Assembly: GCA_025766275.1 (NCBI GenBank)
Contig: JAFKAC010000207.1
Span: 1-64,000, forward strand
Direction of reading: 5' to 3'
DNA length: 64,000 nucleotides
DNA from: Lactarius indigo
Taxonomy: Eukaryota > Basidiomycota > Agaricomycetes > Russulales > Russulaceae
The translations under genes and the position numbers were made by a program. The stretch's first letter is position 1, and every line of letters starts with the position of its first letter. Positions 11,714 to 56,298 of the stretch are shown in pieces. The notes beneath the pieces were generated by a model that saw nothing but the letters and a program-made list of their open reading frames with translations, had not been told where the DNA came from and did not search any database.

Positions 11714-11715
11714 AA

Positions 11716-32070: not shown

Positions 32071-32075
32071 GCATG

Positions 32076-32680: not shown

Positions 32681-32685
32681 GCATG

Positions 32686-33112: not shown

Positions 33113-33720
33113 AGCGGTGGCTTATGTAATTGATACCCCCAGCTGACGGTGAGAATCTTCTGTGATTCATACTCAGCCGGCACCGGCCGACGTCGGAGAA
33201 TCCGACGTAATTGATAGTCCAACCAGCACCAGCTGGAAGTGGGGTGTCCGCTTTTTGATTATTAGCACACACAAGTCGAAACATGCCTCATAGTAACACA
33301 TATTAGTGACAGGAAGTACAGGGAATATGGATATACAAGGGACGACAAAAGGAACTCAGTGAATGGATGTGGGGGTATGCTTTGATGGTCTGTTGATTGT
33401 GAAACAAGTCAATAAGATGTTTAGAGAGTTTGGATGAAATTGTAATAAGTCCTTACTACTCCAGGAGTTGGAATCAGTGGTCGTGATCATTATTTGATTG
33501 AGGGTAATATTCACATAGAATGAATAGATATAGAAAGGCTATACAAATGTGAAGGGGTTGAAAGATACCATCCCTCATGAATGGACATGACTCGATGCCT
33601 AACCAGCTAATATACCCAAGAATACACCTTGCATTGGCTGGTATCCATATGTGTCCAGTGGATCTATGATTGTAGCAGAGTCAGACACTCCGTCAATGTC
33701 ACCATATACATACTTCTATC
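33113..33720 (+). repeat. KDZ transposon left terminal inverted repeat
   Basis: Starts AGCGGTGGCTTATGTAATTG. Includes the word GTAATTGATA twice (about 33125 and 33205), a GC-rich imperfect palindrome GCCGGCACCGGC and the word GGGGTGTCCGC, all matched in the right repeat. The outer 155 bases are the best conserved; the inner limit is approximate. Confidence 0.85.
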
Positions 33721-33804
33721 CATCTGAATATATTAACATAAGAGTATGGATATCCTGCAAAGAACTGATATCCATCCATATGTAAAATAATGGGAATGCA
33801 TGTG

Positions 33805-36800
33805 TTAGAACAAGTGGATTGATTTAACTTTACAATGTTTTAATGGAGCATCTGTGATTGGGGTGAGGGCCTTAACTGAGCTTCTGGAGAGTTCTTCCCA
33901 TGCATGCATCTGATATGATGCATATGCTTGGTGCCCCTTAAGCGAATCCTGTGCAGCAATGGTCATGAGCTTCTTCCACATCTTTGCCTTGGCATGGAAG
34001 TATGCAGGGACCCATTCAGCTTCATTATGGATGCTGTGCTGCTCCTCCAACCATCGTTCAAACTGTGCCCTTGCACGGAGCCAATGAACCCTTTCAACTG
34101 TTAAATAATTGAGTCCATCAATATAAGCACTGATGAATATGAGAACCTACAATCATCCATCCATGTTCCATCATCTTCAACAGTGTGGCCAAACCCCCAG
34201 ATTCAGGATGTTTGCTTGTTACGCTGTCCTATTGGCTCTGATCCAAGAACCAAGGTTGCTACATGGAAGTCCTCTGCACGTAATCTTGGAAGGTCCTATA
34301 GATTCATTGATGCCTGTCGGAGACTCCGGTATGCATCACGTGCCATGCTATATATGCGTGCATGCTCATGGACAGTAGTATCAACACTGTGTATGGCATT
34401 CCAAGCATGGGTCTTTGTCTGCTGTGTGTTAGCAGGTCTAACCTGAGTGCGGAACAGAGCTGACTTGAATCCAAGGGCAAGGCGGATCCTGTGAATGGAA
34501 TCACTGGCTTGTGCATGGCGTAGCTGTACCTCCTTCCTGGCAAGAGATTGGGCTCCATGCTTGACACACCATTCCCATCCAAGGGATGAGGGAAGAAGAA
34601 TGGGAAGATCTTCTGGATTGATGCCATCCATCCCAGATCCATCCAATGCCTGATGAGTGTGATGATGGAAATCATGACCTGAATGATTGTCATCTGTATT
34701 ATTGGGAGGTCCAAGATCATCCACATGGTCGTACTCTTCATAATTACCCAATGGTGATATTGGGGAATCATCTGTGAGTTTCTGTTGGAGGAGGAAAGAA
34801 TCTCCCTGATGCTCAAATATGTCAATGAGCTTCTGGAGGCGACTCTGCTTATTTTCAATGACTTGGACCTCCTCTGTGTTGATCTTTGGACCATATGCCT
34901 GTAGTTGATATCTGATGGCCAGTCTTCACAGGACATCAGCCAACAGTCACATATACCATTGAAGGGACCAACTGTAGCTCCTGAATCTTTATCCCACAAG
35001 AAATCCAAGATGTTTGCCCATGAGTAGTAATATCTCTACTTTCCTCTGAAATCAGTTGTTGCTGGATTTCTGCACGAGAGGGAGCTAATGATATTCATCA
35101 GTGTAGAATAGATTGGTTTATTGGGTAACAATACCTTTGGATGATGCTGTATCATATATGTCCATTAAAGTAGGGTCTTCATGCCTGTTAGATTGAGCAT
35201 GGTTCTCTGCCTCAAGCCATCGCTTGGTCTTCTTCCTGAAGCATGCATTGAGTGTATTGAATGTCTCAGCACTGAGATCTATTCCAGTTTCCATGCGCTT
35301 CCACCGCTTCAGAAGTGATGGAACTGGAACATGGATTATTATATTAGAATGTAGCATGGATATGGATGTGACAGACCAATGCAGACCATCTTCTTCCAAT
35401 TGGAATGGTTCATGTGTGCATCCAAGACCTCCTGGCGATGGGCCAGGGACATCCCACGGATACTCTGTGAGATATTATTGAGTGGTGCCCACAATGTCTC
35501 AATGATCTCCCCATCCACCTGCTTCGCTCCAGGAATATAGCTTGGTGAAAAGCGGGGTAAGCATGAATCTTGATGGCCATGAATATGAAAGAGGCCAATC
35601 CCAGTCCGAAGTTGTAAAGAGCTAGACAGAGATAACTCTGGGCTCTTTTCCACCCTTTCCCTGAAGTGGACACCATATTGGCACATGATGTCATACATAA
35701 CCAGGGCCACAGGGATGTCCTCCATGTTGTAGGAAAGGGCCTTGCAAAGGCTATAGTCCATATTTATTTGCCTAGCATAAGAGCGATGTCATATCCACAC
35801 CTAGAGTCTTTAAACATTGGACATACCTCTCTCCCTTCTGGAAGTCAACTACAGATGTAGGGACAAAGAATCCATGACAGCATGCAGTTGCCCCGATGCC
35901 TGTAACATCAAGGTGTGGACGACTTGAATTGGCCTGTTCAATGGCCCTATATGTGTTACATGTGCTGGGCTATGAGAATATAAGACAACAGTCACTGTTA
36001 ATAGTATCTGACATACCTGGGAAATCTCTTGCCCACTATGCAGGTGAGCCTTATATGAATTGGGATTTGCCATGAAGGCCATCCCTGCTGACAGCGGAAT
36101 GTCCGCTTCCCCAGTTCTGCATCTCATATGCTCTGCTGAGAAGTTACCATCCATTATAAATGTTCGGATGAGCTGATTCCTTTGAGCAAGTCAACAATGG
36201 GATATTTGACATGTTTAATGAATGCATACGGTTCATCATTATATCTGTCCTTCCAATCATCAGGTAGATTGATACCTGGCTGTGGACAGGCTGGACAGAA
36301 TATGGCCATGGATCCATCATTAGCGGGGTCCCTGACTTGCAGATGTCCCAGACCATTCTGAATCCTATTCCTTAAATCTCGCCATTGCCTGGATGCTCTC
36401 AAGAGCTGTTTGTAGAGATTCTGTAAATGTTTATCAGTGATACAGTATGTGGTGCTGGGATGGCATTGTAACATACTGGGACATGGTCAGGGAACATCCG
36501 ATTGGTGATGCTCTGAAGCTTAGAGTAGTACTGTTGTGCAGTTGTCTTGCACTCCAGGTTGTCAGCCAAGAAGTCATCCAGAACTGAGAAGGTAAATGCA
36601 GTCTCAATCTGCTTGAAGGTTGAAGGAAATATTCCAGCTTGGAGTAGTTGCTCATCATCGGCACCAGCATTGGGGCATATGCAGAAGAGTACATCCATAT
36701 CAAAGACACCTGTCTGATTGACAATTGTGATCAGTGGATTGCCTGACTTTGCGGTCCGTGTGCGTCTTGTGTTTCCCTCAGAGGGATCCAACACATCCCC

Positions 36801-37674
36801 AGCAAAGTCATACAATGTGTCTGAAATCCCATGCATATCCTCAAGAGCTTGCAAAGGAGATTGCGGGCCTCCCGAGGAATGGGCCTGCTCCTCCTCAACA
36901 GATATTAGTGATGTAGACCGAGTGTGTCGGGACCTCCGCCTGCTTGTCTGTGGCTCTTTAGCTGCTTGAACTCCCTGGGTATAGATAAGTGCATATGACA
37001 TTTCATAGGACTGATGTATTCATACCTCTACTGTAAGTGGGCATGGCTTTCCATCATGACCCAAACAGAGCTTAAATCCAATTGATATTAATGATATTGG
37101 TGCAAAGTGTGTGCCAGTCCAGTGGGACATCCAATGGAATGGGGATCTTGTATGTATTTGAAGGCAACATTCCTTGCAAAAGTAGTTACCTCCAACACAG
37201 TTGGAACACTTGATCTGCATTGACATGGTGCACATGGAGCATTTTGGGGCCCTTGTCAAACCCTCCATCTCTAGTAACAGGTGAAGATATCTGCTCCGGA
37301 TGTCTATCCATTGGCCCATATGTGTCTGCAATGGTGTCTGTAAATGATCAGTATTTGATGGATGATGAAGGGTATTGTGTCGCATACATGTGGTTGGGGT
37401 TGTGTGTCATCAAGTTGAAGGTCTTGCATGTCAGCTTCATATGGTTCTATGGGTTGAAGGGTATGTGACTCCTGAACCCCCTGCGTTTGTTGCTTGGATG
37501 ACTGCTCCTCAACTATTGTAGCTTGGTTTGAAGCCTGGCCTGACTTCTTCTGCTTTGAAGAATGGAATGGGACCTCCTTCACAGTGGTTTGGAGTCCCCG
37601 CTTAGACTTTGATGTTTTAGAGACAACCTCAGAGACATCTCCCATAGGAATGGTAAAGGTGTTCTTGCGAGGCA
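33805..37674 (-). CDS. KDZ-superfamily transposase with CxC2 cysteine cluster
   Basis: Minus-strand gene of about 11 short-intron exons. ATG at 37674 (MPRKNTFTIPMGD) opens a low-complexity N-terminus. After an intron at 37339-37387 comes the cysteine cluster (CSMCTMSMQIKCSNC, FCKECC) with HWTGTHF (37300-37080). Further introns are at 36975-37025, 36421-36476, 35970-36016 and 35772-35826. Exon 3 reads VFDMDVLFCICPNAGADDEQ; later IFCPACPQPGINLPDDW, FIMDGNFSAEHM, then GIGATACCHGFFVPTSVVDF and the catalytic region MYDIMCQYGVHF, GIGLFHIHGHQDSCLPRF, GEIIETLWAPLNN. The C-terminal half has SQTQQTKTHAW-like and WLEEQHSIHNEAEW segments, ending at 33805, about 85 bases inside the left repeat. One frame jump near 36190 may be an indel or a missed intron. 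The enzyme would excise and insert the whole 23 kb unit. Confidence 0.85.
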
Positions 37675-37884
37675 TGATAGAAAGTTTCAATGGAGTTAGG
37701 AGGATATGGATGATAGCAATTGGGACAGCATCAATCCTTTCACGCATTAAATACATTTACAACACCTTGGATATTCTACACATTGGAATATTGGGCTCGC
37801 TGCACAATCATACACCTGAAGAATGTGTACCCAATTCTAATCTGAAACTGTGGAGTGTATCTGATAGGAATACCATCATCTGTT

Positions 37885-38331
37885 CTATGTCATTTCGGGT
37901 GCTCCGAAACTACCGCTACCATTATCAACACCTTCAGATCCTGATGCCATCTCTGATGCATGTGGGGAGTGACCTTGATACTGTCCATCTTGTGTTTCAC
38001 TTGTCGTTTGTGATATATTGATTCCCACTGTTTCACATAGTGCCCTTACCATAAGGGAGATATCCTTAAGATCCATGCACATCTCCTCTGTCTCCAATAT
38101 GAGGTCTGCATGCTCCTGACCATGTCAGACATGTTAAATGGCTCCATATTATTGTGTACATACCATATGGTCATTGGGCAGACTTGCATGGTCCACATGG
38201 GCAGGGGAATGTGGTTCAATGGAGTCAGGTTTCAGGTTAATGGTTTCAGCATTAGAATCTGATCCATACATGTCATCTTCATCAAATGACATTGCATCGG
38301 AGGAAGAGCTATCAACTGGATCGGAAAACAT
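37885..38331 (-). CDS. Small acidic two-exon protein of unknown function
   Basis: ATG at 38331 (MFSDPVDSSSSDAM), donor GTATGT at 38163, acceptor CAG, second exon from 38115 to the stop at 37885; intron 38116-38163 (48 bases), phase 0 at both ends. The predicted protein is about 130 residues: Ser/Asp/Glu-rich first half, then a likely helical segment (ETEEMCMDLKDISLMVRALCE) and a Ser/Gly-rich tail. It lies 210 bases upstream of the KDZ start on the same strand. No family recognised; being inside the transposon, it may be an accessory gene. The reading frame is intact. Confidence 0.55.
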
Positions 38332-38570
38332 GGTGGGTGGATGTTTGGAGTATGCTTGGGGAGTCCGCCTATCCCTCAAGTGGGTTTTCTGATTCTTATG
38401 GTGGGTTCCTGGGATAGTGGCAATTAGTGAATATTCATGGAAGTACCTGAAATGGAGGGCATACATTTTACTTTGGATGTGGATGGCTGCATGGTGTATA
38501 ATGTAGTCTAGCTGTTACACGGTATAAATATCCCCTAATTGAACTATCATGTGTGGAACACAGTTACATG

Positions 38571-39179
38571 TGATGAACAGACACATAAGAACTATACTCA
38601 CAGTGGACTGATAGTACTGTGGTGAGATATAGAGGGTGACTGGAAGCAGCACAGGGGTGTCAAGCAGAGTGAAGCAAAGTGGAAGTCTGGCACACAAACA
38701 GTGAGAACTGATGTTATACATTGGAGGGAAGGGAGCTTACCTGGCACACAAACAGTGAGAACTGATGTGGACCAGGAGCGTACATGCTACTCTACTTATA
38801 CACTTTCTGGGAGTGACACTATACAAGGGATGTAACACTAGTCACGTACTACAAGACAGTTATTGTTCTACAAACGGACAAAGGAGTGGACGTTCTGAGA
38901 ACAAGGACAGAAAGTACAAAGAGAGTCTAGAAGTAAATGATATCATAATGACATCACAATAAAGATAACGCCACAAAGAGAATAAAGGGAAGAGTACAAT
39001 GAAATGTCCAGAGTGTTCTACATGATGTCATTGTACATGATGTCATAGATAAGCTAAGAAGTCCGAGATTGTACAGATCATATAATCTAATCTACAGGTC
39101 CAATATATCTTATCTAAAGCAGTCCATATCTGCAAGTCCTTTTTAGAGCCGCTAAGTGCGCGCGGGTCACTTATCAACA
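38571..39179 (-). repeat. Solo LTR, family G copy 2, TSD ACATG
   Basis: 609 bases, reverse orientation of 32076-32680 (TGATGAACAG at the left end, TTATCAACA at the right), flanked by ACATG at 38566-38570 and 39180-39184. Includes the same internal tandem duplication near 38700-38760. It inserted inside the KDZ element upstream of the small acidic gene. Confidence 0.9.
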
Positions 39180-39426
39180 ACATGTTTGCCTCATATGTAG
39201 GAGCATTGTGTATGCCATCTAGTATCATGCCGGACTCCCCATCTAATCGCACAACTATCTCCCATATGTGTTTCACGAATCCCTGTAGCATTACATCTAA
39301 TACAGGTATCACAATACCCACCAAACCACATACGGATATCCCATGCATTACGGCGGGGTCCCCGCCACACTGTACGCATATATGTAACAAATATATTTGA
39401 TTGTTTGATGCAGATGTCACATAGAC

Positions 39427-39970
39427 TGTCACGTTCCTACTCGTACGGACTACTTGACTTGAGACCCTTACTGTACCGGTTGCAACTACGGCGGTAAGGT
39501 ATATTAGTTGCGGACTTACCTACAGTGATACGGCAGTGCGATAGGTGATACGGGTACGATAGCTGACTGATGACCGACGCCACTAGTACAGGTACTAGTA
39601 GTATTAGTGTTTGCGATGTTTCTGCGATACGTTGGACGCTACCTACTGTGACTCATAGCAGCGCTTGTAAGCCTGCTCGACATGTATTTAAGACTCTATG
39701 CGAAGACCAAGATACGCCATCTTGGTCTTCTTGAATCGTCACTTGTTGTTTCTCTTTCTGTCTGCCTCTTACCTTTCACTCTCTTTCTCTCGATCTATCT
39801 CGCGTCAACAAGAACAGGATCGTACTTGTCAGTGTGCCTCCGAGCATTCACTAGAACAAGAACACGGGTCTTCGTGCCGTCGTGTCAGGATCAAGATCAG
39901 GACCCGGATATTCGCTAAGTGGTTACCGCTACTCGAGCTCAAGTCGAGCTAACGTCGTGACGACATTACA
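39427..39970 (+). repeat. Ty3-B 5' LTR
   Basis: TGTCACG to CATTACA, 544 bases. Contains TATTTAA at 39685-39691 and the hairpin AAGACCAAGAT / ATCTTGGTCTT at 39703-39729 around the inferred start at 39719. Confidence 0.93.
39685..39729 (+). promoter_or_regulatory. Ty3-B core promoter and start-site hairpin
   Basis: TATTTAA begins 34 bases before ATCTTGGTCTT (39719-39729). The latter is complementary both to AAGACCAAGAT just upstream (39703-39713) and to the primer-binding site at 39973-39983. The spacing fits a TATA-directed start at 39719, and the same arrangement is kept in Ty3-A (11961 to 11927) and the solo LTR at 57603. Confidence 0.7.
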
Positions 39971-39972
39971 TT

Positions 39973-39983
39973 AAGACCAAGAT
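39973..39983 (+). promoter_or_regulatory. Ty3-B self-priming primer-binding site
   Basis: AAGACCAAGAT starts two bases after the LTR and is the exact 11-base complement of the inferred RNA 5' end (39719-39729). Tf1 also uses 11 bases for self-priming; the mechanism here is inferred. Confidence 0.72.
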
Positions 39984-39989
39984 CCCATC

Positions 39990-40394
39990 GTGGCGGTGAC
40001 TACAAGAGATCAGTGGACAAGCTTCCGCCCCTACTCTCTCCCAAGAAGAGGAGAACGTAACGTCCCTACGCGCTTTCTACAAGCTGCCAGTTGGAGGGAG
40101 AGACAAGAAGAAACCGGATATTTCGTAGAGTTCAACGGACCTGCCAGGTTCCGCCCAGTTGAGTTCAACTTCGACCACTTGTGCTGGGTAGAAGTTACGT
40201 GGAACCCCATAGACTCTCAGTGGGATGTCATACGACCAGCAGGACCCAGATATCGGTGTGATATCGACGCAAGAGAACTCAATAGCAGGGCAGATTGGGG
40301 CCCCATCGACGGGCAACTGCGAGAACACTCCACCGGAGAAGTCGTGACAGAAGAGGAAGAAGGTGAACAAAGCCAGGAAGAAAGTGAAGGATGA
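39990..40394 (+). CDS. Ty3-B leader ORF, about 134 residues, no methionine
   Basis: Open from GTG at 39990 to the stop at 40394. It contains a central segment ETGYFVEFNG, HLCWVEVTWNPID, DARELNSRADWGPIDGQL, and an acidic tail. The homologous region of Ty3-A keeps the same residues apart from one frameshift, so coding is supported by two copies. No ATG occurs in the frame, and a stop lies upstream within the LTR in the Ty3-A version. Translation might start at GTG or ATC near the primer-binding site, or the segment may be joined by splicing. The function is unknown. It lies 114 bases upstream of the gag ATG. Confidence 0.6.
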   Translation: MAVTTRDQWTSFRPYSLPRRGERNVPTRFLQAASWRERQEETGYFVEFNGPARFRPVEFNFDHLCWVEVTWNPIDSQWDVIRPAGPRYRCDIDARELNSRADWGPIDGQLREHSTGEVVTEEEEGEQSQEESEG

Positions 40395-40508
40395 GAACCA
40401 AATCAAACGGAAACCAGCGGAGGAGCAATACAAGATCTCCTTATAGAACGAGCTGAGTCTGCGCATATTACTGAGCCAGAACCGATTCATATTCGATCAC
40501 CAGCAATC

Positions 40509-42059
40509 ATGGCAACCCTGACGCAGGCCATGGAAGAAGTCGCACTAGAAGAAACACGCGCCATACGGGCTGAGGCAAGGGAAATCCTCATGCCCATCAA
40601 TCCAGAAACTGGAACACGCATGACCGCAGAAGACGCCGCAATTTTCAGAGCCATAGGATCTGACAGAGGAGATCCCCCATCCGGGCAGCCGCTATCACTA
40701 GAACTACCGCTGGGAATGGGAGGACCGAGCAGAGACCTGCCACCACCACCCGGGGGAGGAATCCCCTTTGACCTGCGCAGAACAGAACCACCAAGAGGAC
40801 CACCCATAGGACCACCGGGAGGAGGAGGTGGAGGTGGAGGTGGAGGAGGAGACGGTGGCGGGAGCGCTGGAGGAGGCGGGGGGCATCACAACGAAAAACT
40901 CACCGGCGAGCCCCCTTCTATTTTTGACGGAGACAGGCTTAAAGTGGATCAATTTTTGACGCAGTGGCACATCTATTGGGGCATGAACCTGGACGCGCCC
41001 ATCATGCGAAACGACTACAGGAGATGCCTCCTGTTTCTATCTTACATCAAAGGAGGAGCGGTCAGCGAATGGGTCCTGTCCTTCCTGAACTGGCTCAACA
41101 GGCAAATACAACGAGGGATCAGTCCCTATACCAGAGATCTGTGGGAAGCCGTGGCTGACGGCTTCAGTCAGCGGTTTGAAAACACATTAGAACGGGAACA
41201 AGCACAGGCCATACTAAGGAAGGGCTTCAAAATGGTGGGAGAGGACATTGACAAGTACGTCAATGATTTCGAACAGCTAGCACGGAAGGCTCATTACCGC
41301 CTCAATGAACCCCAAACCATCGACCTCTTCACGTCGGGGTTACCCAAAGAGCTGTTCAAGAACGCGTTCCAATTCGACGATCCGGTCACGTTCGATGACT
41401 GGAAGAGGGCCGTTCTCAAGAGGCAAAAGAATTACATACACCTCAAGGCCAGATTAAACGAACACAAAAACACGATGACGCAGCCAAAGAAACAAAGTGG
41501 GAACGCGGGATGGACCCTCCCCCAGAATCTACCACAAACCAATCCGTGGGCAATGGACACTTCCGCCGATCGCGCCAAGGTACGACTTGCCAGATCGGAA
41601 GACATCGATTTCAACAAGCTGCCCCACACCGGAGCTCCACCCCCGTTCCCGCCAAGAGGAGGACCGGGAGTCCGAGGAAGAGGAAGAGGAGGGGCTAGAA
41701 GGGACTTAAGGAATGTCCTTTGTTATAACTGTCATGCTCCGGGGCATCTCTCACGAAATTGCCCCTACCCGCGAATGCCGAGGCAATGGCAGAACACCCC
41801 CTCAAGCAGCAGAATGACCGAAACAGCGTGGCCCCCTCAGTGGCCCACATCACCAGGACCTGTGTCGCACTACGAACCCTCACTACCAGGGTATGCGACG
41901 CCAGCACCAAGTGCAACACCCGCACCCCAAATTAACGCGGCAAAAATGGCGGGAGAACAAGCGAAGGAGTGGCTCACGCAAGTGGCCAATAGTACGGACG
42001 AGGTAAAAGACCTCATACTTCAAGACTTGTGGGGAAAAGAGGGTTTTCGGGACGCCTAA
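40509..42059 (+). CDS. gag: Ty3-B Gag, 516 residues, intact
   Basis: ATG at 40509 (MATLTQAMEEVALEE). Residues 1-60 are helical and charged; about 60-130 form a Pro/Gly-rich linker with a run of Gly. A capsid-like retrotransposon gag domain spans about 145-320 (FLTQWHIYWGMNLDAPIMR, LEREQAQAILRKGFKMV). Then come an RGRGRGGAR basic patch and one CX2CX4HX4C knuckle (CYNCHAPGHLSRNC, about residues 400-413). The C-terminus (EVKDLILQDLWGKEGFRDA) overlaps the start of pol. Gag would assemble the particle and bind element RNA. This is the only undamaged large retrotransposon ORF in the window and could still be expressed or complement other copies. Confidence 0.93.
   Translation: MATLTQAMEEVALEETRAIRAEAREILMPINPETGTRMTAEDAAIFRAIGSDRGDPPSGQPLSLELPLGMGGPSRDLPPPPGGGIPFDLRRTEPPRGPPIGPPGGGGGGGGGGGDGGGSAGGGGGHHNEKLTGEPPSIFDGDRLKVDQFLTQWHIYWGMNLDAPIMRNDYRRCLLFLSYIKGGAVSEWVLSFLNWLNRQIQRGISPYTRDLWEAVADGFSQRFENTLEREQAQAILRKGFKMVGEDIDKYVNDFEQLARKAHYRLNEPQTIDLFTSGLPKELFKNAFQFDDPVTFDDWKRAVLKRQKNYIHLKARLNEHKNTMTQPKKQSGNAGWTLPQNLPQTNPWAMDTSADRAKVRLARSEDIDFNKLPHTGAPPPFPPRGGPGVRGRGRGGARRDLRNVLCYNCHAPGHLSRNCPYPRMPRQWQNTPSSSRMTETAWPPQWPTSPGPVSHYEPSLPGYATPAPSATPAPQINAAKMAGEQAKEWLTQVANSTDEVKDLILQDLWGKEGFRDA
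42041..42047 (+). promoter_or_regulatory. Predicted -1 ribosomal frameshift site GGGTTTT
   Basis: In the gag frame the codons are GAG GGT TTT CGG, so G-GGT-TTT has the X-XXY-YYZ form. A -1 slip enters the pol frame, which is open on (FSGRLNPSVWVRAL). Gag stops 13 bases downstream at 42057-42059. Ty3-A keeps the same heptamer (9719-9725, minus). Confidence 0.6.
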
Positions 42060-45000
42060 ACCCGTCAGTCTGGGTGAGGGCTTTACAATGTAATTCTGTA
42101 ATTGTGACAATGCGCTATCGATCCTTGCGACTCCCAGTGACTGTCCAAACAAATTACAAAACGACTGAAACCAACGCCTTGGTCGACTCTGGAGCGACCG
42201 ACAACTTTATTCGGCCAAGTATGGCAGTACAAGCGGGTGTCCCATTACAATTGTTGGACACGCCTCGCAAAATATGGAACATAGACAACACGGAAAACAA
42301 AGCTGGGTTAATCACTCATTACGTTAACCTAGAAGTAACGACACGAGGACAGGTGAAGAAGATGACCTTCCTGGTCACCGACCTTGGAAGCGAAGACATG
42401 GTGCTGGGCTACCCATGGATGAGCGCATTCGAGCCCACCATCAGTTGGGCAAACGCAACCATACATCCGGATATGTTACCAATAGTGCTAGCCACTACCG
42501 AAGAATTGCTTCGCAACCCTGTCGTCCGAGCCTTGATTACGGACGAAAAGGAGCAAATTATACAAGAACTAGAAGAAGAAACCTTCGCCAGAGCCACTAC
42601 CTCGATGGAACTGGCCATACAGGCAAAGCAGCAGCAGACAGCAGTACCGCTCCCCTCCGAATATGCGGCATTCACGAAACTCTTCAGTGAGCAGGCATCA
42701 CATCGCTTCCCTCCGGCCAGACCGTGGGACCACGCAATCGACTTCAAACCATCCGCGCCAGCCGCCATAGACTGCAAAATATACCCTATGACGCAGAAAG
42801 AAGAAAGCGAACTCAGGGAGTTCTTAGACGAGAAGTTAAAGCAAGGATATTTGCGCCCTTCTATTTCGCTGTACGCATCCTCCTTTTTCTTTATCAAAAA
42901 GAAGGACGGAAAACTACGCCCGGTTCAGGATTATCGGGTTATTAATTCACACACCATACGCAACCAATACCCGCTGCCTCTGATCCAAGACCTCATTTTG
43001 GACCTCAGCAACGCGCACATTTACACCAAACTCGACATCCGCTGGGGATACAACAATATATGCATACGTGACGGCGACCAAGAGAAAGCGGCATTCAAAA
43101 CTAAGTTTGGCCTCTTTGAACCAACGGTCATGTTCTTCGGACTTACCAACTCCCCTGCCACCTTCCAAGCTATGATGAACCACATCTACCAAGACACGAT
43201 ATCAAAGCACGAACGCCTGGGCACCACGATACGTGTTTATATGGATGATATCAGGATAGCCACTCACTTCGATCACGACCTCTCAGCCCACGCTGCCGCA
43301 GTTCGCGACATCTTACGCGTCGCGGAGGAACATGACCTCTACTTCAAGCTCGAGAAGTGCCTTTTCCACCAACCGCGAATGGATTACCTGGGGGTAATCC
43401 TTGAAAGGGGGGTAACTCGCATGGATCCTGTAAAAGTTCAAGGCATCAAAGACTGGCCGACGCCAACAAAAGTCAAGGACGTGCGATCCTTCCTGAACTT
43501 TTTTAACTTTTACAGACTTTTCATTCGCGGCTTTGCAAATCACGCCAAACCACTGACCAAACTAACAAGAAAAGACGAAGAATGGCGATGGACGGCGGAG
43601 GAGGACAAGGCGTTTAACACGCTAAAGAGTCTTGTCACAGAGGAACCGGTGCTGGCACACCCTGTCCTCCAAGACCCGTTCGAACTGGAAGTAGACGCTT
43701 CGGGTTACGCGGTGGGAGCAGTGTTACTGCAAAAGAAATCTGACGGCAAGCGACACCCTATAGGTTATTACTCAGCAATGCTCTCTGAAGCTGAGAGAAA
43801 CTACGACATATACGACCTAGAGCTACTCGCAATCGTCAAGGCCCTGCGGAACTGGAGACCACTACTGGCAGGAGCCCCTCACAAAATTAAAATCTATTCG
43901 GACCATCTCAACCTACAATACTGGAAGTCCCCACAAAAGATTAGTAGGCGTGTTGCCAGGGAAGTACTCGAACTCTCTGAATACGACTTCGAGATTCATC
44001 ACATCAAGGGAAAGAACAACGGAAGGGCGGACGCCTTATCACAGACAACAGCGAAGTTGTCGTCCTCCCCCCCGAAGTCTTTGTACGCACTCTCAATACC
44101 GCACGCACCTTTGTGGCAAACCCAAATCTGCGGCAACCACGCCACCAACAAGATGAAGAAGTGATCAAGGTGTGGGCGGATCCCCACAACCTCAAGAAGA
44201 TACAGGGAGAGTGGTACAAAGACGGCAGGTTTGTAATAACCGGACCCGCATCAACCCATCGAGATCAACCCATCGAGTGCTGATACACGATCACCACAAC
44301 TTACCGATACACGGTCACCCGGGAATCGCGAGAACACAACGAATCCTGGAAAGACATTACTGGTGGCCGCGACTGCGAAGAGACGTATACGAGTACGTGC
44401 AAGGATGCGCAGAATGCCAACGGAATAAAGTAAACACCCGACCCATCCGCGCCGCGCTGCACCCCATAACGCCAATATTGGAAGCCACGCTGTTCCATAC
44501 GGTAGCCATGGACTTCATCACTAAACTTCCATCATCCAAGGGGTACGACAGTATTCTAACTGTCACAGATCATGACTGCAGCAAAGCCTCCATCTTCATA
44601 CCGTGTAAAGAAGAAATTTCCGCAGAAGAGACGGCGATTCTGTACGTAACTCACGTGTTCAAACGTTTCGGACTACCGCGTAAAATCATCAGCGATCGAG
44701 ACCCCCGCTTCGCGTCCAAATTCACAAGGGAGATTTGCCGAATTTTGGGAATCCAGCAAAACATATCCACGGCGTACCACCCACGCACCGATGGACAGTC
44801 TGAAAGGACTAATCAATGGCTGGAGCAGTACTTGCGCTTTTGGGTAAATGAGCGGCAAGATAACTGGACTGCTTATCTATCGATCACGGAATTCACGCAC
44901 AACAACTGGCCACATGAACACACCAAACAATCGCCGTTCCAACTTCTGATGGGATACGACCCACATGCGGATTGGACCGATAAGCCGTCTCCCATTCCGC

Positions 45001-45191
45001 AGGTAATGAAACGACTAACACAGCTAAAGGAGGCACGAGAAGAAGCCCAACGCCTTATGAAGAAGGCACAGGAAGCTTGGGTACGCAACAAAGATACGCC
45101 CAAATTCCGCGTCAACGACCTTGTATGGCTAGAAGGGAAACACTTGAGGACCAATCAACCCACGGCCAAATTAGCGGCCAAACGCCACGGT

Positions 45192-45934
45192 TGCCATGAA
45201 CTCCCCTGTCACCTTTTCTTTTTCTGCCCTTATCTGATCCATTCCCTTTCTTGGCAGTTACCTGTCTTGAACCTATGCTTCCCTTTTATCAGATTATTCT
45301 AGCACCTTCTATGCTATTCTCATTCACCCTTCTCCTGCTTTGCTGGCATGACACCATCTTGTACGATAGTAGCATCATCTTGCCAGCACATCATCTATAG
45401 CAACCAGTAGCACTATGCGCTCAGGCGCAATCCTGTACTATATAAGGAACCCTGTAGTGCGCCTTAGCTCCTTAGCTTTGGCTTAATCAATCATCTGCGT
45501 TGTATCTCTATTGACTCCCTGAGTGCTTCAGCCCCTTCAGCACTCAAGTCCTTGGCCCTGAACCCTTGCCCTTGACCCTTATCCCCTTTGGGTCATTTCC
45601 CCTCTCAACCTCTGTGCAGGCTTCCCTTTGACTCCGCTCTTACCCTCTCTCTGTCTTACTGGTCAGCCCAGTGACACGTGACCTTTGGACTTAGGCCTCC
45701 GCGCTCGTCCATTGTTACAGACTCAGTCACCTTAACACAAGGGGCTGTTACAGAAGGACTTTTCCCACCTCAGCATCGCGGGATTGCCACAGACTCAGTC
45801 ACCTTAGTACGGGGACTGTTACAGAAGACCTTAGGAGTTGTTGCACACAGTGTCGATCCGACTTGGCTGTCGACTGCCACGTGACAGGAAGCCATTACAG
45901 AAGACCGCGCCCCCCCCCCCGCAGAGGCGTGACA
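45192..45934 (+). repeat. Solo LTR, family F, TSD ACGGT, inside Ty3-B integrase
   Basis: 743 bases, TGCCATGAAC to GGCGTGACA, with ACGGT at 45187-45191 and 45935-45939. TATATAAGG near 45439. Internal near-repeats of CAGACTCAGTCACCTTA (about 45717 and 45790). A run of C lies at 45909-45920. Removing the insert plus one TSD rejoins the integrase tail. Confidence 0.92.
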
Positions 45935-47331
45935 ACGGTCCCTTTCGGGTGACACAGGTGATGTCCCCCTACAATTATCGATTGGAACTTCCCACACAGT
46001 GGAGCATCCACCCAGTATTCCATATCGATCTTCTCACGCCGTACAGACAAACTCTTCTTCATGGAGAAAATTTCACGCACCCACCACCCGAATTGATTGA
46101 TGGAGAAGAAGAATAAGAAGTCGAGGCCATTCTGGACTCTCGGCACTTCGGCAGGGGGAGACGCCTCCAATATCTCGTCAAATGGAAGGGATACCCAGAC
46201 TCAGAGAATCAGTGGGTCAACAAGGATGACGTCTTTGCGCCCGAAGCTCTCCGTCTATATCAGGAAGCGCAAACACACGGAAGAACAGTTAAAACGAGCG
46301 AGACGAGAGCAGAGGAAAGTCATCCCATCTTCCTTCGCTCTACCACCTCCACTCTCATGCCCACTTCCCCTCTGCGACATGTCACCCAAGCAGCACTCCT
46401 CGACTCCCTTGCCAACGACGCCAGAGCACTCCTGGAAGACGACGCCGACACTGAAATTCCCGCCGCCCAAATCACACCATGGACGCCTCTTCGACCACAA
46501 GAGGGCCCCATCACCGCGCAAGAGTGGGCACACGTCATTGCCCGATTCCCAGACCCCACACAACACCCCGACGATGAACACGCCGTCGCCCATGTCTTCA
46601 GAAATGAGGCTGGTGAGCGCGAACCCATCGCAGCCATCCCCCCAAGCGACGACATCATCAGCGTTCGCGGAATTTTCCCGAGCAACGACGAGCATTCAAG
46701 CTCTCCTGGAGTACGAGTTGGACGGTTGGAGGAGAGTGGCGGCGGAGTGGCAGAAGGAACAGCTCGACTCAGCCACGGCCCGACTGAGGGAGATGCGAGA
46801 GCGACGGCAGCGATGGCAGCAGCTGAGGCTGGCCATGACGACTCAGATTACTACCCGGCGAGACACCCCTTCCTACAAACGAAACGCGACGCTGATAATC
46901 CCCTCATCACGCCATGGCTCGTCTACACCGACGGGTCCCCCATGTATCGAGGACGTGTGCGAGTCCCTGGTGTTGCGGAGCACCGCCCGTTCACCGCCAC
47001 CGAAGACCCCGCACATGTCATTGCGCCTGAAGGGTTCCGGGCAAATAGAAGACCCCATTATATTCGATACCCCATCACCGGGCCCGACGGAGTAGAGAGG
47101 GACGTGTCGCACGTCCAGATTATCAGAGGGGCAGACCCCATTATACTGGGGGTCATACCGGGCTCTCCTCATGTATACGGTAAGCCCTTCTACACCGAAC
47201 CCCATGTCTCCGCCGCTCTCCGCCCCCAATATCTGCACGAGGACCTCGTCATTTTTGCGGCGGACAAGATAACCGACCGTGCCCTCAATCGCATCAACGA
47301 CGAGTCGCTCACAGCCGAGGTCACGCGCTAC

Positions 47332-47850
47332 TGTAACGTCATCACAACGTTAGCTCGACTTGAGCTCGATGGGGGCGGGTAACAACTTAGTGATAACCCT
47401 TAGGGAAGTCCTGGCTTGAAGGCACGAAGGCCCAAGGCGTATATTCTGGTGAATGCGCGTAGGCACACCGAAGTTGTTCTACTTGACTGGAAAGGAAGTT
47501 GAAAGATGATACGAGATGAAGAGGAATAGAAACAAGTGACGATTCAAGAAGACCAAGATGGCGTATCTTGGTCTTCGCATAGAGTCTTAAATACATGTCG
47601 AGCAGGCTTACAAGCGCTGCTATGAGTCACAGTAGGTAGCGTCCAACGTATCGCAGAAACATCGCAAACACTAATACTACTAGTACCTGTACTAGTGGCG
47701 TCGGTCATCAGTCAGCTATCAGTCGTAATCGCCTATCGCACTACCGTATCACCGTGAGTAAGTCCGCAACTAATCTACCTTACCGCCGTAGTTGCAACCG
47801 GTACAGTAAGGGTCACAGTCCGTATAGTCCGTACAAGTCGAAACATGACA
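47332..47850 (-). repeat. Solo LTR of the Ty3-B family, reverse orientation, TSD GCTAC
   Basis: 519 bases, TGTAACGTCATC to AACATGACA, flanked by GCTAC at 47327-47331 and 47851-47855. It keeps the complement of TATTTAA and the start hairpin (47548-47596). It interrupts the C-terminal extension of Ty3-B pol at the residues LTAEVTRY. Confidence 0.93.
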
Positions 47851-48060
47851 GCTACCGCGCGGCGAGCTATGAGCTCGACCGACTTCGCGCCCGCATAGCC
47901 CAACTCCGCGCGATGATCGAGTGCGTGCAGGATGACAGACGCAACTCCATCTATCGACTGGAGCACGCTACAGTGTTGGAGAGGATTGCCGACGAACAGA
48001 GGGACTGGCCGCCAAGAGACTTTCGGTGAGTCTGGGGCCTCACGCTTAGAAGGGGGGTGA

Positions 48061-48604
48061 TGTCACGTTCCTACTCGTACGGACTACTTGACTTGAGACC
48101 CTTACTGTACCGGTTGCAACTATGGCGGTAAGGTATATTAGTTGCGGACTTACCTACAGTGATACGGCAGTGCGATAGGTGATACGGGTACGATAGCTGA
48201 CTGATGACCGACGCCACTAGTACAGGTACTAGTAGTATTAGTGTTTGCGATGTTTCTGCGATACGTTGGACGCTACCTACTGTGACTCATAGCAGCGCTT
48301 GTAAGCCTGCTCGACATGTATTTAAGACTCTATGCGAAGACCAAGATACGCCATCTTGGTCTTCTTGAATCGTCACTTGTTGTTTCTCTTTCTGTCTGCC
48401 TCTTACCTTTCGCTCTCTTTCTCTCGATCTATCTCGCGTCAACAAGAACAGGATCGTACTTGTCGGTGTGCCTCCAAGCATTCACTAGAACAAGAACACG
48501 GGTCTTCGTGCCATCGTGTCAGGATCAAGATCAGGACCCGGATATTCGCTAAGTGGTTACCGCTACTCGAGCTCAAGTCGAGCTAATGTCGTGACGACAT
48601 TACA
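48061..48604 (+). repeat. Ty3-B 3' LTR
   Basis: 544 bases, preceded by a purine tract AGAAGGGGGGTGA (48048-48060). Relative to the 5' LTR it shows TATGG for TACGG, CGCTC for CACTC, GTCGG for GTCAG, CCAAG for CCGAG, CCATC for CCGTC and AATGTC for AACGTC: all CpG transitions. Confidence 0.93.
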
Positions 48605-49149
48605 TAGACCTTCAGATATACCACAAGGAAATAACAAACATATTGAAGCAGGGGTTCTGGACTGTTGCATATGTAAAACATGTTTTATGTGTACCAGGTA
48701 GCAATTGTAATACAGTCCCACACAACGCTTCAATCAGCATATCCAATTGAGCGGACCTCCCGACACATCACATGACACCTTCCCATCATACATTGATACA
48801 GGGACCCCAAACTGTTGCATATGGAAAACGTAAATCTAGATACAGTCCCACACGACACGTCATCAGGTATATCTGATGCATCAGGTATCCCCCAATACCA
48901 CATGACGCTCTCCTATTCATAGAAGCGGGGACCCCGACACATCACACGTATCACGCCTGCTTCAAATACAAGTCATCATATATTCGAAACGAAGGCCCCT
49001 TAGTCACTGGATCACATGGTGATTATTATGTTGATATGGTCACATGCAAACAGTCCTGACACATCATATATTTCGACCCTCAATGGGCCGGACCTCCCGA
49101 ACATGCATTTACAGAATAGTATACATCATTTAAATCGAAAAACTCCATT
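48605..49149. other. Spacer inside KDZ element with repeated GGACCTCCCGA words
   Basis: No gene. The words CGGACCTCCCGA (about 48754 and 49090), GGGACCCCGACACATCAC (48947) and GGGACCCC recur, and related words (inverted) appear in the spacer 52.6-53.3 kb and in the terminal repeats. ACAGTCCCACACAACGC / ACGACAC repeats at about 48712 and 48842. Confidence 0.5.
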
Positions 49150-50674
49150 CTAAGCCACAGGACCAGCTGATGATGACCCACCAGATATTCCAGATGGGGT
49201 CAGACGTCCCCCTGAGGCAACACTCTCCCCTGTAATGTGGATGAGCCTGTGTTTCCGATTCAGATGATATAAGTGCTTACCTGATGGTTGGCGAGAGCGG
49301 CTTGGGGGTGCACTTGAAAGGGAAGAAGGAGGCCGAATGTCAGAGAGAGTGAGGCCAGACATATGTGCTCCAACTGATGAGGTCGACTGGACACCAGGGG
49401 ATACTGAGCGATGATTGGTGGGGGGCATCCCGACACCAGGAATCGATGTCGATTCAATACCCTGGTGGGACAGGAGTTTCCCAACCATAAGCCGTGTGTC
49501 ATGCAAATCCTGGCGTGTGTTTACAACCTCAAATAGCACACTGTTACGGTTCCGAGGGACCATACGTTCGCTAAGTCACGCGGAGCTATGCTCAATGCAG
49601 TCGGTAGAGTCGGGACTTGTTCTGCAAACAAGTCAAGATTCGGGGAGTTCTAAGCTCAACTCAAAGAGTATCGCTAGAGAGAGGGGAGAGCACGTGGGGT
49701 TCTGAGACAAGGCAAGCTAGGTCGGATTCAAGAACTAAGAGTAGACAACCAAAAGTACTACTCAGACAGCTACTACTTATACTCTTACAGACTATTGGTT
49801 TTCGTGACTATTTTCTTGATGAGCACCATAAGGCGTGCTTATTAGCACTGTCAGTCGTGCTATTCCGGAACTCTGAGGCCATACTTTGTTTGATGCTTTG
49901 CTGGCACGACGTAACGCGTGACCGATAGTCACGATGTCACGTGACCGTGACACACACGGTCTACTGTCTGAGTGACATCACCAAGTTTCGATGTCAATGA
50001 CTCCACTTTGCACTCCAGTGCATCAACACGGGAGTCCCCGAAGCTTCCTACTAGGTGTGTGATGCATGTGGGTTTTGTTTATGCTTGCAGAAAACAGGTG
50101 GGACGTACCTGGGGACCCCGCTCCCATCGATGGTGTTGATCTGGCCTCCATTGCACGATGCAGCGGGATGGCCCACGTTGCAGGGGGTTCACATGGCTTG
50201 TGCCTCTGCGCACACTTCACACATGCGATTGACCGCTTATTGGCCTGGGCTTTGCATTCAGCATCCCCAAAATGGATGCAGGGGCCACAGCAGTCCTACA
50301 AGTAGTGCACATATACATCAGATCGTTATTTGGATGCAGGAGGATGGAATAAGAATACTTACATTCCCATAGGCAACAATATCACCAGCATCCGTACGCT
50401 GACGTTGTGTGGGTCGAGGGGGAGATGCCTGCTCCACTTCGACATGTGGAACAGGGGGGTTCTGATGTGGGACCGTTTCGGATGCTTCTCCCGGATTGCC
50501 CGGTGAATCCCGTTTCATTCCTCGCAGCACATATGGAGCAGTGTGGCGTTTGGATGGAGCATCGGCCGGGCGGTCCGACGAACGTGTCTGTATGGCACGT
50601 GCCTTTACTGTGCCTCGTGTATTGTGTACGGGTGGGGGGGTGGCCGGGGGGTCCGGGGGTTCTGGGGGGTCCAT
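49150..50674 (-). pseudogene. Six-cysteine zinc-cluster and coiled-coil protein, interrupted by a solo LTR
   Basis: ATG at 50674 (MDPPEPPDPPATPP) opens a Pro/Thr-rich N-terminus to a GTAAGT donor near 50362. The next exon encodes CX2CX7CX10CX2CX6C (CGPCIHFGDAEC, then CVKCAQRHKPC; about 50290-50195), close to the fungal Zn(II)2Cys6 pattern, and ends at a GTACGT donor near 50107. The third exon carries a heptad-like segment (RVDALECKVESLTSKLGDV, about 50030-49965). It is cut by the solo LTR at 49542-49952; on the other side the frame continues (LFEVVNTRQDLHDTRLMV) to a Ser/Pro-rich tail and stop at 49150. Deleting the LTR and one CACAC copy restores the frame exactly. Likely a DNA-binding dimeric protein of the transposon, e.g. 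a regulator or transposase helper; function inferred. Confidence 0.65.
49542..49952 (+). repeat. Solo LTR, family D copy 2, TSD CACAC
   Basis: 411 bases, TGTTACGGTTCCGAGGG to GTGACA, flanked by CACAC at 49537-49541 and 49953-49957. It interrupts the coiled-coil exon of the zinc-cluster gene. Its relative 13245-14057 also has CACAC flanks. Confidence 0.92.
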
Positions 50675-50732
50675 GGAGGCGGAAGGAGGGGCAAGTGTCA
50701 ATCATGAAGACAACAACTGGGATGGGAGATTG

Positions 50733-51303
50733 TCAACTGTAGCTGTGCATGAGGATGTGAATAGGTATGAATCGATACAATATATCTGACACACATTCTG
50801 AGGGCATCTGTGGTATGGTGTTCTCTTCGAGCCACCACATCTTGCTCGGATGGAGGCCATCCAGATATGAGTTCAGATCAAGGGATGAGAGTTTGAGGTG
50901 CCAGTCCGGGTTCTCCGACGATACATATTCACAAAGCGTAGTAATGTATTCAGTCGTTAGTATGAACCAATCAGGGTAGCAGTCCTCTATTGCAGCTGAC
51001 TGCCACTCGGTCCCAATGACCTGGATGATCAGATGGACACAGGGGGTCTTGGAATGTATCCCATAGCCCGCAAATATCGAATTAATGGTTCTCTGAATAG
51101 CATACCATTAGATACATCGCATATGCGTTGAGGATATTAAATCGACTCACCACTTCTTGGTTGATCTTTGTATCCATTATGTCCAGCTCCATTGGTGACG
51201 GACCAGTCTCCTCCACACGTTTCATGGCAGCCATGAACTTAGCTGCTATGGTGAGCAACTGAACTTCATGCTTTGTCAATTCGGATGGGCCTTTCCTACC
51301 CAT
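50733..51303 (-). CDS. Two-exon, 170-residue protein of unknown function in KDZ element
   Basis: Exon 1 51303-51151 (MGRKGPSELTKHEVQLL), intron 51093-51150 with GTGAGT donor and CAG acceptor, exon 2 51092-50733 ending in TGA. The reading frame is intact across both exons. The N-terminal half looks helical (LTIAAKFMAAMKRVEE); the C-terminal half has clustered aromatics (CYPDWFILTTEYITTLCEYV, SKMWWLEENTIP). No family recognised. It is on the same strand as the zinc-cluster gene, whose start lies about 60 bases downstream of this stop. Open, intact coding inside an old transposon suggests it is, or recently was, under constraint. Confidence 0.6.
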
Positions 51304-51562
51304 TGAGCGTGGGGGTGTCTAATGTGAATGATAGCGAAGTCACAGATGGAAGCACCTCAGATGGAAGCACCTTGAAACGTTTGGGGGTCCCACTATTGAT
51401 TATCGATCTCCTCTGGTATCCAGGAACCCCAAAATCCGATTTAGGAAATTTGGAAAATATATATCCGATTGATCCGATAATCAAGCGATGACTGTGGTGA
51501 CTAGATATGATATATATCTACGCAGGTGGCGAGCTCCAATATCCCACAGACCCCTTTCCAGT

Positions 51563-53559: not shown

Positions 53560-55690
53560 ATGCAGAACGAGGACATCACTTACTCTGGCTCTGGCGGAGA
53601 GTCCGAGATATCACAGAGTCAAAGAGCACAGTCTGGTGACACAGGATTTATCATTACTCCTGAAGATGCAGATGTATTGCAGGAATATCTTGAAGAGTTC
53701 CAAGCTGCTGATACAAGCCTTCGTACCAGGATAATTGAGAAAGCCATGGCCCCAGTTATATCTGCTCCGCCCTTCTAGTGCACCATTTGATAAGAAGGTG
53801 GCCACAAAGGTGGGCTTCATTTATACAGTGACGGATATATTGCTCATTTCAGATTTCAGAAAATTCAGAAATGGTTTTATAACCACTACATCCGCCCAGG
53901 CGTTCAATATATCAAGTTCACTTGCAAATGGTCTGCCAGGAATGCATTCTATCACCTGCACTGTGAGGAAGTCTTGGAGCGTGCTAGGGAGGACTCTGGG
54001 ACAGAGCCAGGGAACCCCGCATTCCTGGGGGCCCTTCAAGATGCAACCACTGCTTATGGAATGATGTATCCCCTAAAGATCAAAGGGAGTATGTAGATGC
54101 TGCTAAGGAATGGTCAGAGAAGACTCCACCAAAGCATATTCAATCCAGGTACGCAAATATGATCACCTTGGATCCATTTTCTCTCATCTCTTCTATACAG
54201 AATGGCATCTTCTATGTGTGAGTGGATCATCCAAGACTTTCAAAGTCAACTCTACAAGACATGTGGTATTCGTTCCATTGTTCTCACAGCATATGAGGGT
54301 GAAGACAACAACCTCAAGATTGGCTTGTAAGTCATCCAAAAATGTATCCTTAATCTGTACTGACCATCAATTGATGCAAACCAATTTCAGCAATGATGTG
54401 AACAGTGTATTGCGGATGGAAAGGACTTTCAGAAATTCTGCCCAGACTGGAAGAGTGCTGCCCTCTGGGAGCAGTGGACTCAATTTGGATTAAAGTGCTT
54501 TGCAAAAGGTTTGACAAGCTTCTTATCCCAGTGAGTGAATATCATTCATGTACATTCTAGAGGACTGTCCAGGAGCATCCAAAAAAGGACAACTCAGGAC
54601 AATCCAATCCCCAATCCCCCTGTATTTGATGCAGATGGATGTCCGGAGCTTCCGACAGTTACTCAGCGTCATGGATATAAAGCCAAGATTGTTCAGTCAT
54701 TGCTCAGGGATTATTGCACTGCACATATCCATAAGCCATTCTTTTAATAATGTGTATCAGTATTTAATATGTTGGAATAAGGTTATGTCACTGGAAAGCC
54801 AACACTGACCATTCCATGGGGATCATTGGTCAAGGACCCATCTTCCTGGATTCGTGATGAATGTATTCCAGATGGGTTTGAGTGGAAGGACCCATCTAAG
54901 ATCCAGATTGGAGAGGTCTTTCGTCTACTGTACCACTGGAGTGACAGGCAAGATAAAGGCATTGACCCCTTGATGTGGGTATCAACGTCCCCACTCTTTA
55001 GTAATTTGGAAGATTCCCCAAGGCCTATGCGGAGTGTCCGAAGGGCTCGAAAGCAGCAATCACCAGCATCTGATGAAGAGTGCTTCATTCTTCCAGCTAG
55101 TCGGGACTCTGATCAGGAGGATGACATTACTGATGCTGAAGATTCTTCAGATGATTCATCCAGGAATGATGATTCATCTGACAGGACTGATCCATCTGAG
55201 GATGAAGTGGCTATGAGGTCTCCACCCTTGAATATGTCTTATATACAGGAGGACGCTTGTCCTGGTGAGTCCGATTGTTATTGGGTTACCCTCAACTTAT
55301 CAATGACAACATTGCATGTAGATGATGATGGAGGTCCCAGTCCCACCTCTGCTGGACACGATTATCTGAGCATGAATAGATCTTCATTTCCAGGTTTGCA
55401 TCCTATCCACATTACATCCGGCACCACCAATTCATTCATCAATGCACAGAAATGGCAGGACCATCACACTCTCCTCAGCTTCAATGGAAAGAAATGCAAG
55501 TTGGCCATCAGCCTCATGTAGCAAAAGGGAAAGGGAAAGAAATCAAACAAACTATCAAGGTCTCAGAGAAGGTCAGGTTAGTGGCTAACAATTAGCCCCT
55601 TCCCCAGACTTCTGATCACTTCACAGGAATATGGATACTGGTTGGGGTGCAGCTAAAGTCCATCCTGACATCTGGAGCATGAATAGATAG
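53560..55690 (+). pseudogene. Long degraded gene at right end of KDZ element, unknown family
   Basis: Exons on the plus strand read in order: NEDITYSGSGGESEIS (53563 on), WFYNHYIRPGVQYIKFTC (53865-54060), PKDQREYVDAAKEWSEKTPP (54067-54150, in another frame), CEWIIQDFQSQLYKTCGIR (54200-54330), ADGKDFQKFCPDWKSAALW (54412-54530, another frame), RHGYKAKIVQSLLRDYCTAH (54660-54740), and DPSSWIRDECIPDGFEWKD with LLYHWSDRQDKGI (54791-54960). A long acidic Ser-rich tail follows to 55521, with a possible continuation to 55690. Exon joins at 54330-54390 and 54530-54600 look like introns, but at least two 1-base frame changes lie inside exons. I do not recognise the fold. Position next to the right terminal repeat, mirror-image to the transposase, suggests a second element-encoded factor. 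The 5' end is uncertain: CATGCAG at 53559 could also be an acceptor. Confidence 0.55.
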
Positions 55691-56298
55691 ATATAAACAT
55701 CTATATAGTCATGCTGGCGGAGTGTCCACCCATAGCTTCAATGATGTGCCCTGAACCCATATGGATATTGGTCAACTAATTGTTTACAAACTGGTTGTGT
55801 ATTTCATCGAGGATATCCCTGCTGGATGCACTTATATGTTAGTCTCTTCAAACCCCTTTTCATTTGAACAGTATTTCTACATCTCTTTGTTGTATATGAG
55901 TATGACCCTCAATCAAATAATGACAAGACCCACTGGTTCCTACTCCTGGAACACTCATGGTCAAGCTCAGGGTTCACTGAAAATTCATCCGAACTCCCCA
56001 TACATCCTATGGACTTGTTATACTGTAAAGGTATCCCCCAACATCCATTCAGGAGTAACCTTTGGTCATTGCTTATATATCCACATTCCCTGTACTTCCT
56101 GCCACCAATATGTATCACAATGAGTCATGTATCGACTTGTTTATGCTAATAATCGAAAAGCGGACACCCCGCTTCCAGCCGGCGCCGGTTGGACTATCAA
56201 TTACATCGGATTCTCCGACGTTGGCTGGCGCCGGCTGAGTATGAATCACAGAAGATTCTCACCATCGGTTGGGGGTATCAATTACATAAGCCACCGCT
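55690..56298 (-). repeat. KDZ transposon right terminal inverted repeat
   Basis: Inverted match of 33113-33720. Outer 155 bases (56144-56298) carry about twelve differences, all transitions, several at CpG. The inner part includes GGACACCCCGC (56161), CCTCAATCAAATAATGAC (55909-55926) and TCCATATGGGTTC (complement near 55757), matched in the left repeat. Confidence 0.85.

Follow-up and report, generated by a model that had tools for sequence, protein, structure and literature searches.

We asked whether the region between two inverted ends in this stretch of Lactarius indigo DNA (the window, 64,000 nucleotides, contig C121 of our genome set) is a single mobile element, and what its genes might do for it. 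An earlier note, made from the sequence alone, had read the region as a multi-gene mobile system, a 23 kb transposon spanning 33113..56298 with a KDZ transposase and at least four more genes. KDZ transposases are DDE-type enzymes. Our comparison makes it very likely that the element of the window belongs to the KDZ superfamily and derives from an autonomous, Kyakuja-like DNA transposon of 13 kb, of which it is one decayed copy with three interruptions; such an element would work by the mechanism set out below.

The outer borders were obtained by comparing copies and place the element at 33101-56310, with the 7-bp target-site duplication CCGCACG abutting both borders (Table 1). A self-comparison of the window using BLAST aligned the inverted repeats 33106-33571 and 55836-56305 with 80% identity over 484 aligned columns (E 7.6e-90). 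The outermost 12 bp, read inward, are CACATAATGATC on the left and CAGCCAATGGAT on the right, and only 6 of the 12 positions are identical, which is why the true ends had been missed. The inverted-end element described earlier is real, but each of its ends lies 12 bp further out. Its reported identity of about 92 percent over the outer 155 bases was reproduced (92.3% from 33113/56298), whereas the ends, thought to be traceable for about 600 bases, were followed by BLAST for about 470 bp.

Table 1. Coordinates of the element, its genes and its later insertions in the window.
Feature	Position	Strand	Remarks
Target-site duplication CCGCACG, left copy	33094..33100		
Left long inverted repeat	33101..33571		L-type terminus CACATAATGATC = 33101-33112
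KDZ transposase gene, CxC2 + KDZ domains	33716..37675	-	12 exons; protein of 1114 aa (C16 copy)
G2, small acidic/Ser-rich protein, ~100 aa	37890..38331	-	Model approximate
Later insertion, 608 bp	38572..39179		6-bp duplication ACATGT; absent from the C16 copy
Later Ty3-type LTR retroelement, ~9.2 kb	39427..48604	+	5-bp duplication TAGAC; absent from the C16 copy
G3z, Cys-cluster protein (CxxC..C..CxxCx6C)	49200..50295	-	Split here by the ~390-bp insertion
Later insertion, ~390 bp	near 49561-49952		Interrupts G3z
G3s, ~152 aa protein	50791..51303	-	
G4, Ser/Pro-rich protein, ~229 aa	51563..52512	+	
G5, large protein	53560..55690	+	HMG-box-like region, second conserved module, acidic tail
Right long inverted repeat	55836..56310		R-type terminus = reverse complement of CAGCCAATGGAT, 56299-56310
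Target-site duplication CCGCACG, right copy	56311..56317		

The element measures 23.2 kb in the window because three later insertions have entered it, and its uninterrupted form is 12,977 bp; the length of 23 kb given earlier was correct overall but counted the nested insertions in. We defined these three extra blocks by comparison with the C16 copy. What had been called nested retroelements between the genes are one Ty3-type retroelement and two further inserts. The LTRs of the nested Ty3-type element are 98.9% identical, and all six substitutions between them (39427-39971 and 48061-48605) are C/T or G/A at CpG. The 608-bp insert (38567-39184) resembles a repeat at 32072-32685, immediately outside the left end, at 81.5% in inverted orientation, and the two are perhaps copies of a small mobile repeat. 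Elsewhere in the window, 4492-12180 holds a Ty3-type element that is related to the one at 39427-48604 (~73-80% in the longer internal matches) and lies in the opposite orientation, and 17168-18049 is a tandem array with a spacing of ~63 bp, similar to 246-516, whose units match their own reverse complement. Scans of the window for Rfam families (gathering threshold) and tRNA genes gave no matches.

The earlier note had proposed searching the same genome for the outer ends, for full copies without the Ty3 element and for empty sites, and we found all three in the assembly (90.3 Mb, 291 contigs). The outer ends recur genome-wide. Seven of the eight measured copies of the window's own family, family A, are free of the Ty3 element, and they are 12,977 (C16 and C91), 12,979, 12,982, 13,506, 13,532 and 14,330 bp long. 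Four uninterrupted family A copies are 99.3-99.9% identical and represent a recent spread. Both flanks were read for 11 copies, eight of family A and one each of families B, D and E. An exact 7-bp duplication was present in 8 of the 11: the window copy, C146, C91, C16 and C63 (A), C279 (B), C35 (D) and C248 (E). The duplication of C201 (family A) matches at 6 of 7 positions, and no matching duplication was found for C218b and C54, two of the eight family A copies. CA..TG termini are present in all four families.

The empty sites were sought with queries in which the flanks were joined after removal of the element and one duplication. The C201 join (253 bases) gave a full-length match with 100% identity at C232, and all of the 40 scored matches (from 260 candidates) crossed the junction at 98-100%. 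The C16 join gave 14 matches, 10 of which crossed the junction at 87-99%; the other four were the two halves of C16 itself and two short side matches at 75%. Precise empty sites therefore exist for both insertions tried. Together with the further insertions that are flanked by duplications of their own, they show that the element is a mobile unit. A Pfam scan that covered 9 of the 22 listed flank ORFs found retroelement coding sequence in a flank of six of the eight family A copies; C218b and C54 share one such flank, which makes five distinct flanks.

The right flank of the window element (56311-58300) is present on five contigs at 98-100% (C121, C14, C89, C22 and C104), as haplotigs or a segmental duplication, and the window locus must therefore count as a single insertion. 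The left junction is also present in C14, C242, C15 and C29. The repeated locus means that some of the counted copies go back to a single duplicated insertion, as would suit a single-gene KDZ transposon lying beside a cluster of host genes, with ends that arose by coincidence or are parts of some larger repeat. Such an arrangement is already contradicted by the five other family A insertions, which have different flanks and 7-bp duplications (one at 6/7), by one copy each of families B, D and E with duplications of their own, by the empty sites and by the recurrence of the genes in these three families, and we give it next to no credence.

The two ends of the mobile unit differ from each other. 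Families A, B, D and E, as far as copies were fetched, have a common L-type end (CACATAATGATC or -ATT) and a common R-type end (CAGCCAATGATC or -GGAT), and the gene block lies between them in either orientation. The L end is on the KDZ side in six of the eight family A copies and in the family D copy, and on the G5 side in the family B copy, the family E copy and the family A copy C54; both ends of C218b are R-type. Both orientations of the gene block could be accounted for by an inversion that uses the long inverted repeats. Palindromes resembling CCGACGTCGG are repeated within the long inverted repeats and are candidate transposase sites. At C218:185385-233500, two elements are adjacent in opposite orientation, and a GAGCTGA duplication is split between the L end of one element and an R end of the other. 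This split, together with the two R-type ends of the second element, suggests an inversion between the C218 copies.

The element carries six genes, of which KDZ, G2, G3z and G3s, in this order from the left, are on the minus strand and G4 and G5 on the plus strand. The transposase thus occupies the left end and the large G5 gene the right, each with outward transcription, as had been noticed before. The accessory genes number five, in keeping with the earlier count of at least four, although the small genes between the two end genes are four rather than three. The models of G2, G3z and G4 are predictions from a sequence comparison of two families. The annotated family A relative of G5, P0001, has 566 aa.

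We searched the six family A proteins against Pfam. The transposase contains a KDZ domain (PF18758; 166.6 bits against a cut-off of 26.6, E 8.8e-49) and an N-terminal CxC2 domain (PF18803; 73.8 bits against a cut-off of 27, E 1.5e-20), and the other five proteins gave nothing above the cut-off. In regard to G5, 59 homologues were aligned, and 21 of them matched HMG_box_2 with E values of 0.1 or less, the best being 1.1e-4; these HMG matches fall in the corresponding region of the proteins. Among 30 homologues examined singly, one passed the Pfam HMG cut-off (P0047 from Lactarius hengduanensis, 23.3 against 22.4 bits); P0001 gave no HMG match at E 0.1, and a G5 profile matched no solved structure among the PDB sequences at E 1. 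Six Cys residues of G3z can be aligned across the four families (A, B, D and E), and their spacing in family A is x2, x7, x10, x2 and x6; G3z, a candidate Zn2Cys6 cluster protein, had no Pfam match at E 1. A protein-database search with G3s found no relatives at E 1e-3 outside the element family.

For C16 (family A) compared with C279 (family B), the dN/dS values were 0.16 for KDZ (1097 codons), 0.23 for G2 (67 codons), 0.25 for G3z (175 codons), 0.33 for G3s (142 codons), 0.17 for G4 (163 codons) and 0.17 for the N-terminal exons of G5 (259 codons), and 0.54 for one C-terminal (tail) exon of G5 (147 codons). The codon pairs were chosen by protein similarity, which favours low values, and without a wrong-frame control; the dN/dS values of the small genes rest on near-saturated dS, and the comparisons of A with D or E are saturated for several genes. 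An independent count on the nucleotide alignment of A and B gave a divergence of third > first > second codon positions in all six genes. These sequence comparisons indicate purifying selection on all six genes since the divergence of A and B. Three of the eight family A copies (C16, C91 and C201) are free of stops and frameshifts throughout the parts examined, which comprised four G5 exons and, for G3z and G3s, all but two tiny end exons. The window copy is broken: KDZ contains two in-frame stops and G4 contains one, G5 is frameshifted, and G3z is split by the insertion.

The association of the genes was examined across the genome using 129 of the 149 rows of a KDZ core scan, from which 20 fragments and second pieces were dropped. 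The loci were sorted by identity into bands that do not represent a tree: A 15, B 26, C 7, D 18, E 16, F 39 and partial 8. For G5, 96 loci were used, represented by one central-exon hit each, from the listed part of 230 matches. Among the 82 loci of bands A-E, 71 have a G5 gene no more than 25 kb away, lying to the expected side and on the opposite strand (A 13/15, B 22/26, C 7/7, D 16/18 and E 13/16), and the other 11 lack such a neighbour. Permuting the G5 positions within contigs, with the largest hit coordinate taken as the contig extent, gave a mean of 6.9 and a maximum of 14 such pairs in 1000 rounds. Conversely, a KDZ gene lies within 60 kb of 79 of the 96 G5 loci when all bands are counted, and of 77 when it must belong to bands A-E and be on the expected side and strand, leaving 19 without.

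Among the smaller genes, G3s (71 of 87 rows used) accompanies KDZ at 60 of the 66 loci of bands A-D; it was found at none of band E in the genome scan, yet the copy fetched from family E contains a match at E 1.4e-7. G4 (41 rows) was found only with bands A and B in the genome scan. The gene set between matching ends, whose co-occurrence the earlier note had wished to see followed up, recurs collinearly in three diverged families, B, D and E, from each of which a single copy was fetched; G4 is weak in two of them. For bands A-E, the pairings at 71 of 82 KDZ loci and 77 of 96 G5 loci speak against both refuting patterns named in the earlier note, namely KDZ copies whose ends lie just outside that gene and genes like those at 49-55 kb that occur regularly without the terminal repeats. 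The recurring ends, Ty3-free copies, empty sites and recurring gene set support the reading as a multi-gene mobile system.

Relatives of G5 were found by two protein searches, the second covering 120 of its 159 matches, in named records of at least ten Lactarius species (L. indigo, L. hatsudake, L. akahatsu, L. sanguifluus, L. hengduanensis, L. pseudohatsudake, L. deliciosus, L. tabidus, L. quietus and L. psammicola). Further relatives are in unnamed records, many of them metagenome-derived. Fused gene models with G4 directly ahead of G5 occur in L. sanguifluus (three) and L. quietus (one, at 2e-5). The accessory genes might instead be passengers, useful to the fungus and carried on an ordinary transposon, and their putative role in transposition leaves room for this. 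Against it, the named G5 homologues among the matches listed are all from Lactarius and are often present in several copies, and the kept order and orientation across families and the constraint in every gene fit selection on the element. We regard the passenger explanation as improbable.

A second KDZ lineage in the same genome carries a different cargo. The TET/JBP domain (PF12851) has 39 matches in the genome, 38 of them over the cut-off, and none among the six family A proteins. A TET match lies within 25 kb of 36 of the 39 band-F KDZ loci (within 4.4 kb of 32) and of only 5 of the 82 loci of bands A-E. In four of these five cases a band-F gene is ~4 kb from the TET match, and in the fifth (C112) KDZ fragments that had been dropped from the count sit 3-12 kb from it. 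G5 is within 25 kb of 3 of the 39 band-F loci, at 18-21 kb. TET and the five-gene cargo are thus partitioned between KDZ lineages of one genome and are almost mutually exclusive, and the A-E elements seem to carry five genes in place of the DNA-demethylating gene of their cousins. The KDZ cores of band F are 60-67% identical to that of the element described here over matches of 129-130 residues, and both lineages probably belong to the same deep group. Twenty copies of the band-F element are 99-100% identical over 2.1 kb. No inverted repeat was detected in the 14,001 bp around a band-F copy at C24:1320000-1334000, and a search for band-F ends by a 7-bp duplication plus CA..TG returned five candidates, all of chance quality; the band-F copies that were compared stop short of the left border. 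The C24 stretch, a TET-associated locus, contains direct repeats at its positions 1515-1924.

Both lineages show decay at CpG. Singleton C>T changes were counted separately at CpG and at other C/G positions. The figures are 202 of 757 and 45 of 5249, respectively, for the eight family A copies, and 35 of 118 and 6 of 851 for the 2.1-kb stretch of the 20 band-F copies, 17 of which are within 25 kb of a TET match. By this pattern both KDZ lineages appear to be CpG-methylated. Shielding of its own lineage from CpG mutation by TET is not supported, as the band-F copies decay in the same way, and neither cargo visibly stops this decay.

The partition of TET and G5 within one genome raises the possibility, to which we give limited credence, that the five accessory genes form a module against silencing and stand in for the TET/JBP dioxygenase of the sister lineage, rather than being transposition helpers. 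The CpG-mutated family A copies make silencing pressure plausible. The TET-associated lineage is, however, CpG-decayed as well, Pfam detects no chromatin- or methylation-related domain in the six proteins, and the mutual exclusion may be simple descent. A broader proposal would join the two functions: a separate Kyakuja-like lineage may have replaced the TET/JBP strategy by a six-gene, polar-ended machine (the transposase, three partner proteins, an HMG-like architectural protein and a DNA binder with a Cys cluster) that would serve to assemble transposition and also to keep the element active under CpG methylation. We consider this conceivable but doubtful.

In the reading that we prefer, an autonomous transposon with transposition helpers, the KDZ transposase would bind the repeated palindromic motifs of the long inverted repeats, pair one L-type with one R-type end and insert the element via a 7-bp staggered cut. 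G5 (HMG-box-like, DNA bending, with an acidic tail) and G3z (Cys-cluster) would be DNA-binding helpers that assist the pairing of the ends or maintain expression of the element, and G2, G3s and G4 may be partner or regulatory subunits of the transposition machinery. To our knowledge, few cut-and-paste transposons of eukaryotes carry as many as five accessory genes as a conserved set. Two related CpG-mutated KDZ lineages with different cargo in one nucleus make the purpose of accessory genes directly comparable, and the defined ends, duplications and intact coding copies make a transposition assay feasible. The element would also help the annotation of Lactarius genomes, where G5-type genes are called 'hypothetical proteins'.

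A search of the literature available to us returned nothing linking Lactarius with KDZ or Kyakuja, and one for fungal KDZ transposases together with HMG proteins gave a single paper, on a brown alga. Among known systems, the consulted text on Kyakuja reports TET-carrying elements from Agaricomycetes including Russulales (Kojima 2025, PMC12730594). The Lactarius element shares with Kyakuja the KDZ transposase, CA..TG termini, 7-bp target-site duplications and host group (PMC12730594). It differs in having inverted ends of ~470 bp, L/R polarity, five other genes and no TET, whereas the Kyakuja families in this text carry TET/JBP, and two Laccaria families (Kyakuja-1_LB and -2_LB) are described there with 7-bp duplications, CA..TG ends and TET but without TIRs (PMC12730594). 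In the consulted part of the Cryptococcus study, KDZ1-KDZ3 are elements of 9-11 kb with TIRs of 139-241 bp whose movement was demonstrated (PMC12810828). TIRs are common to these and the Lactarius element, but their duplications are of 8 bp for KDZ1 and 4-8 bp for KDZ2/KDZ3, compared with 7 bp here, and that part names CxC1 and mentions no further genes, compared with CxC2 and five genes here (PMC12810828). Zisupton, also of the KDZ superfamily, has TIRs as does the Lactarius element, but is described with 8-bp rather than 7-bp duplications (PMC12730594), and in Pleurotus CxC2 is reported ahead of intact KDZ genes (PMC7641404). Within L. indigo itself, the band-F loci have a related KDZ core, but TET is close by and the G5 set is nearly always absent. 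We do not claim strict membership in Kyakuja, as the Lactarius element has TIRs and the kinship of its transposase is gauged by core identity to band F. We file the element as a member of the KDZ superfamily that would work like Kyakuja, and the long TIRs, the polar ends and the cargo set it apart from the published Kyakuja families.
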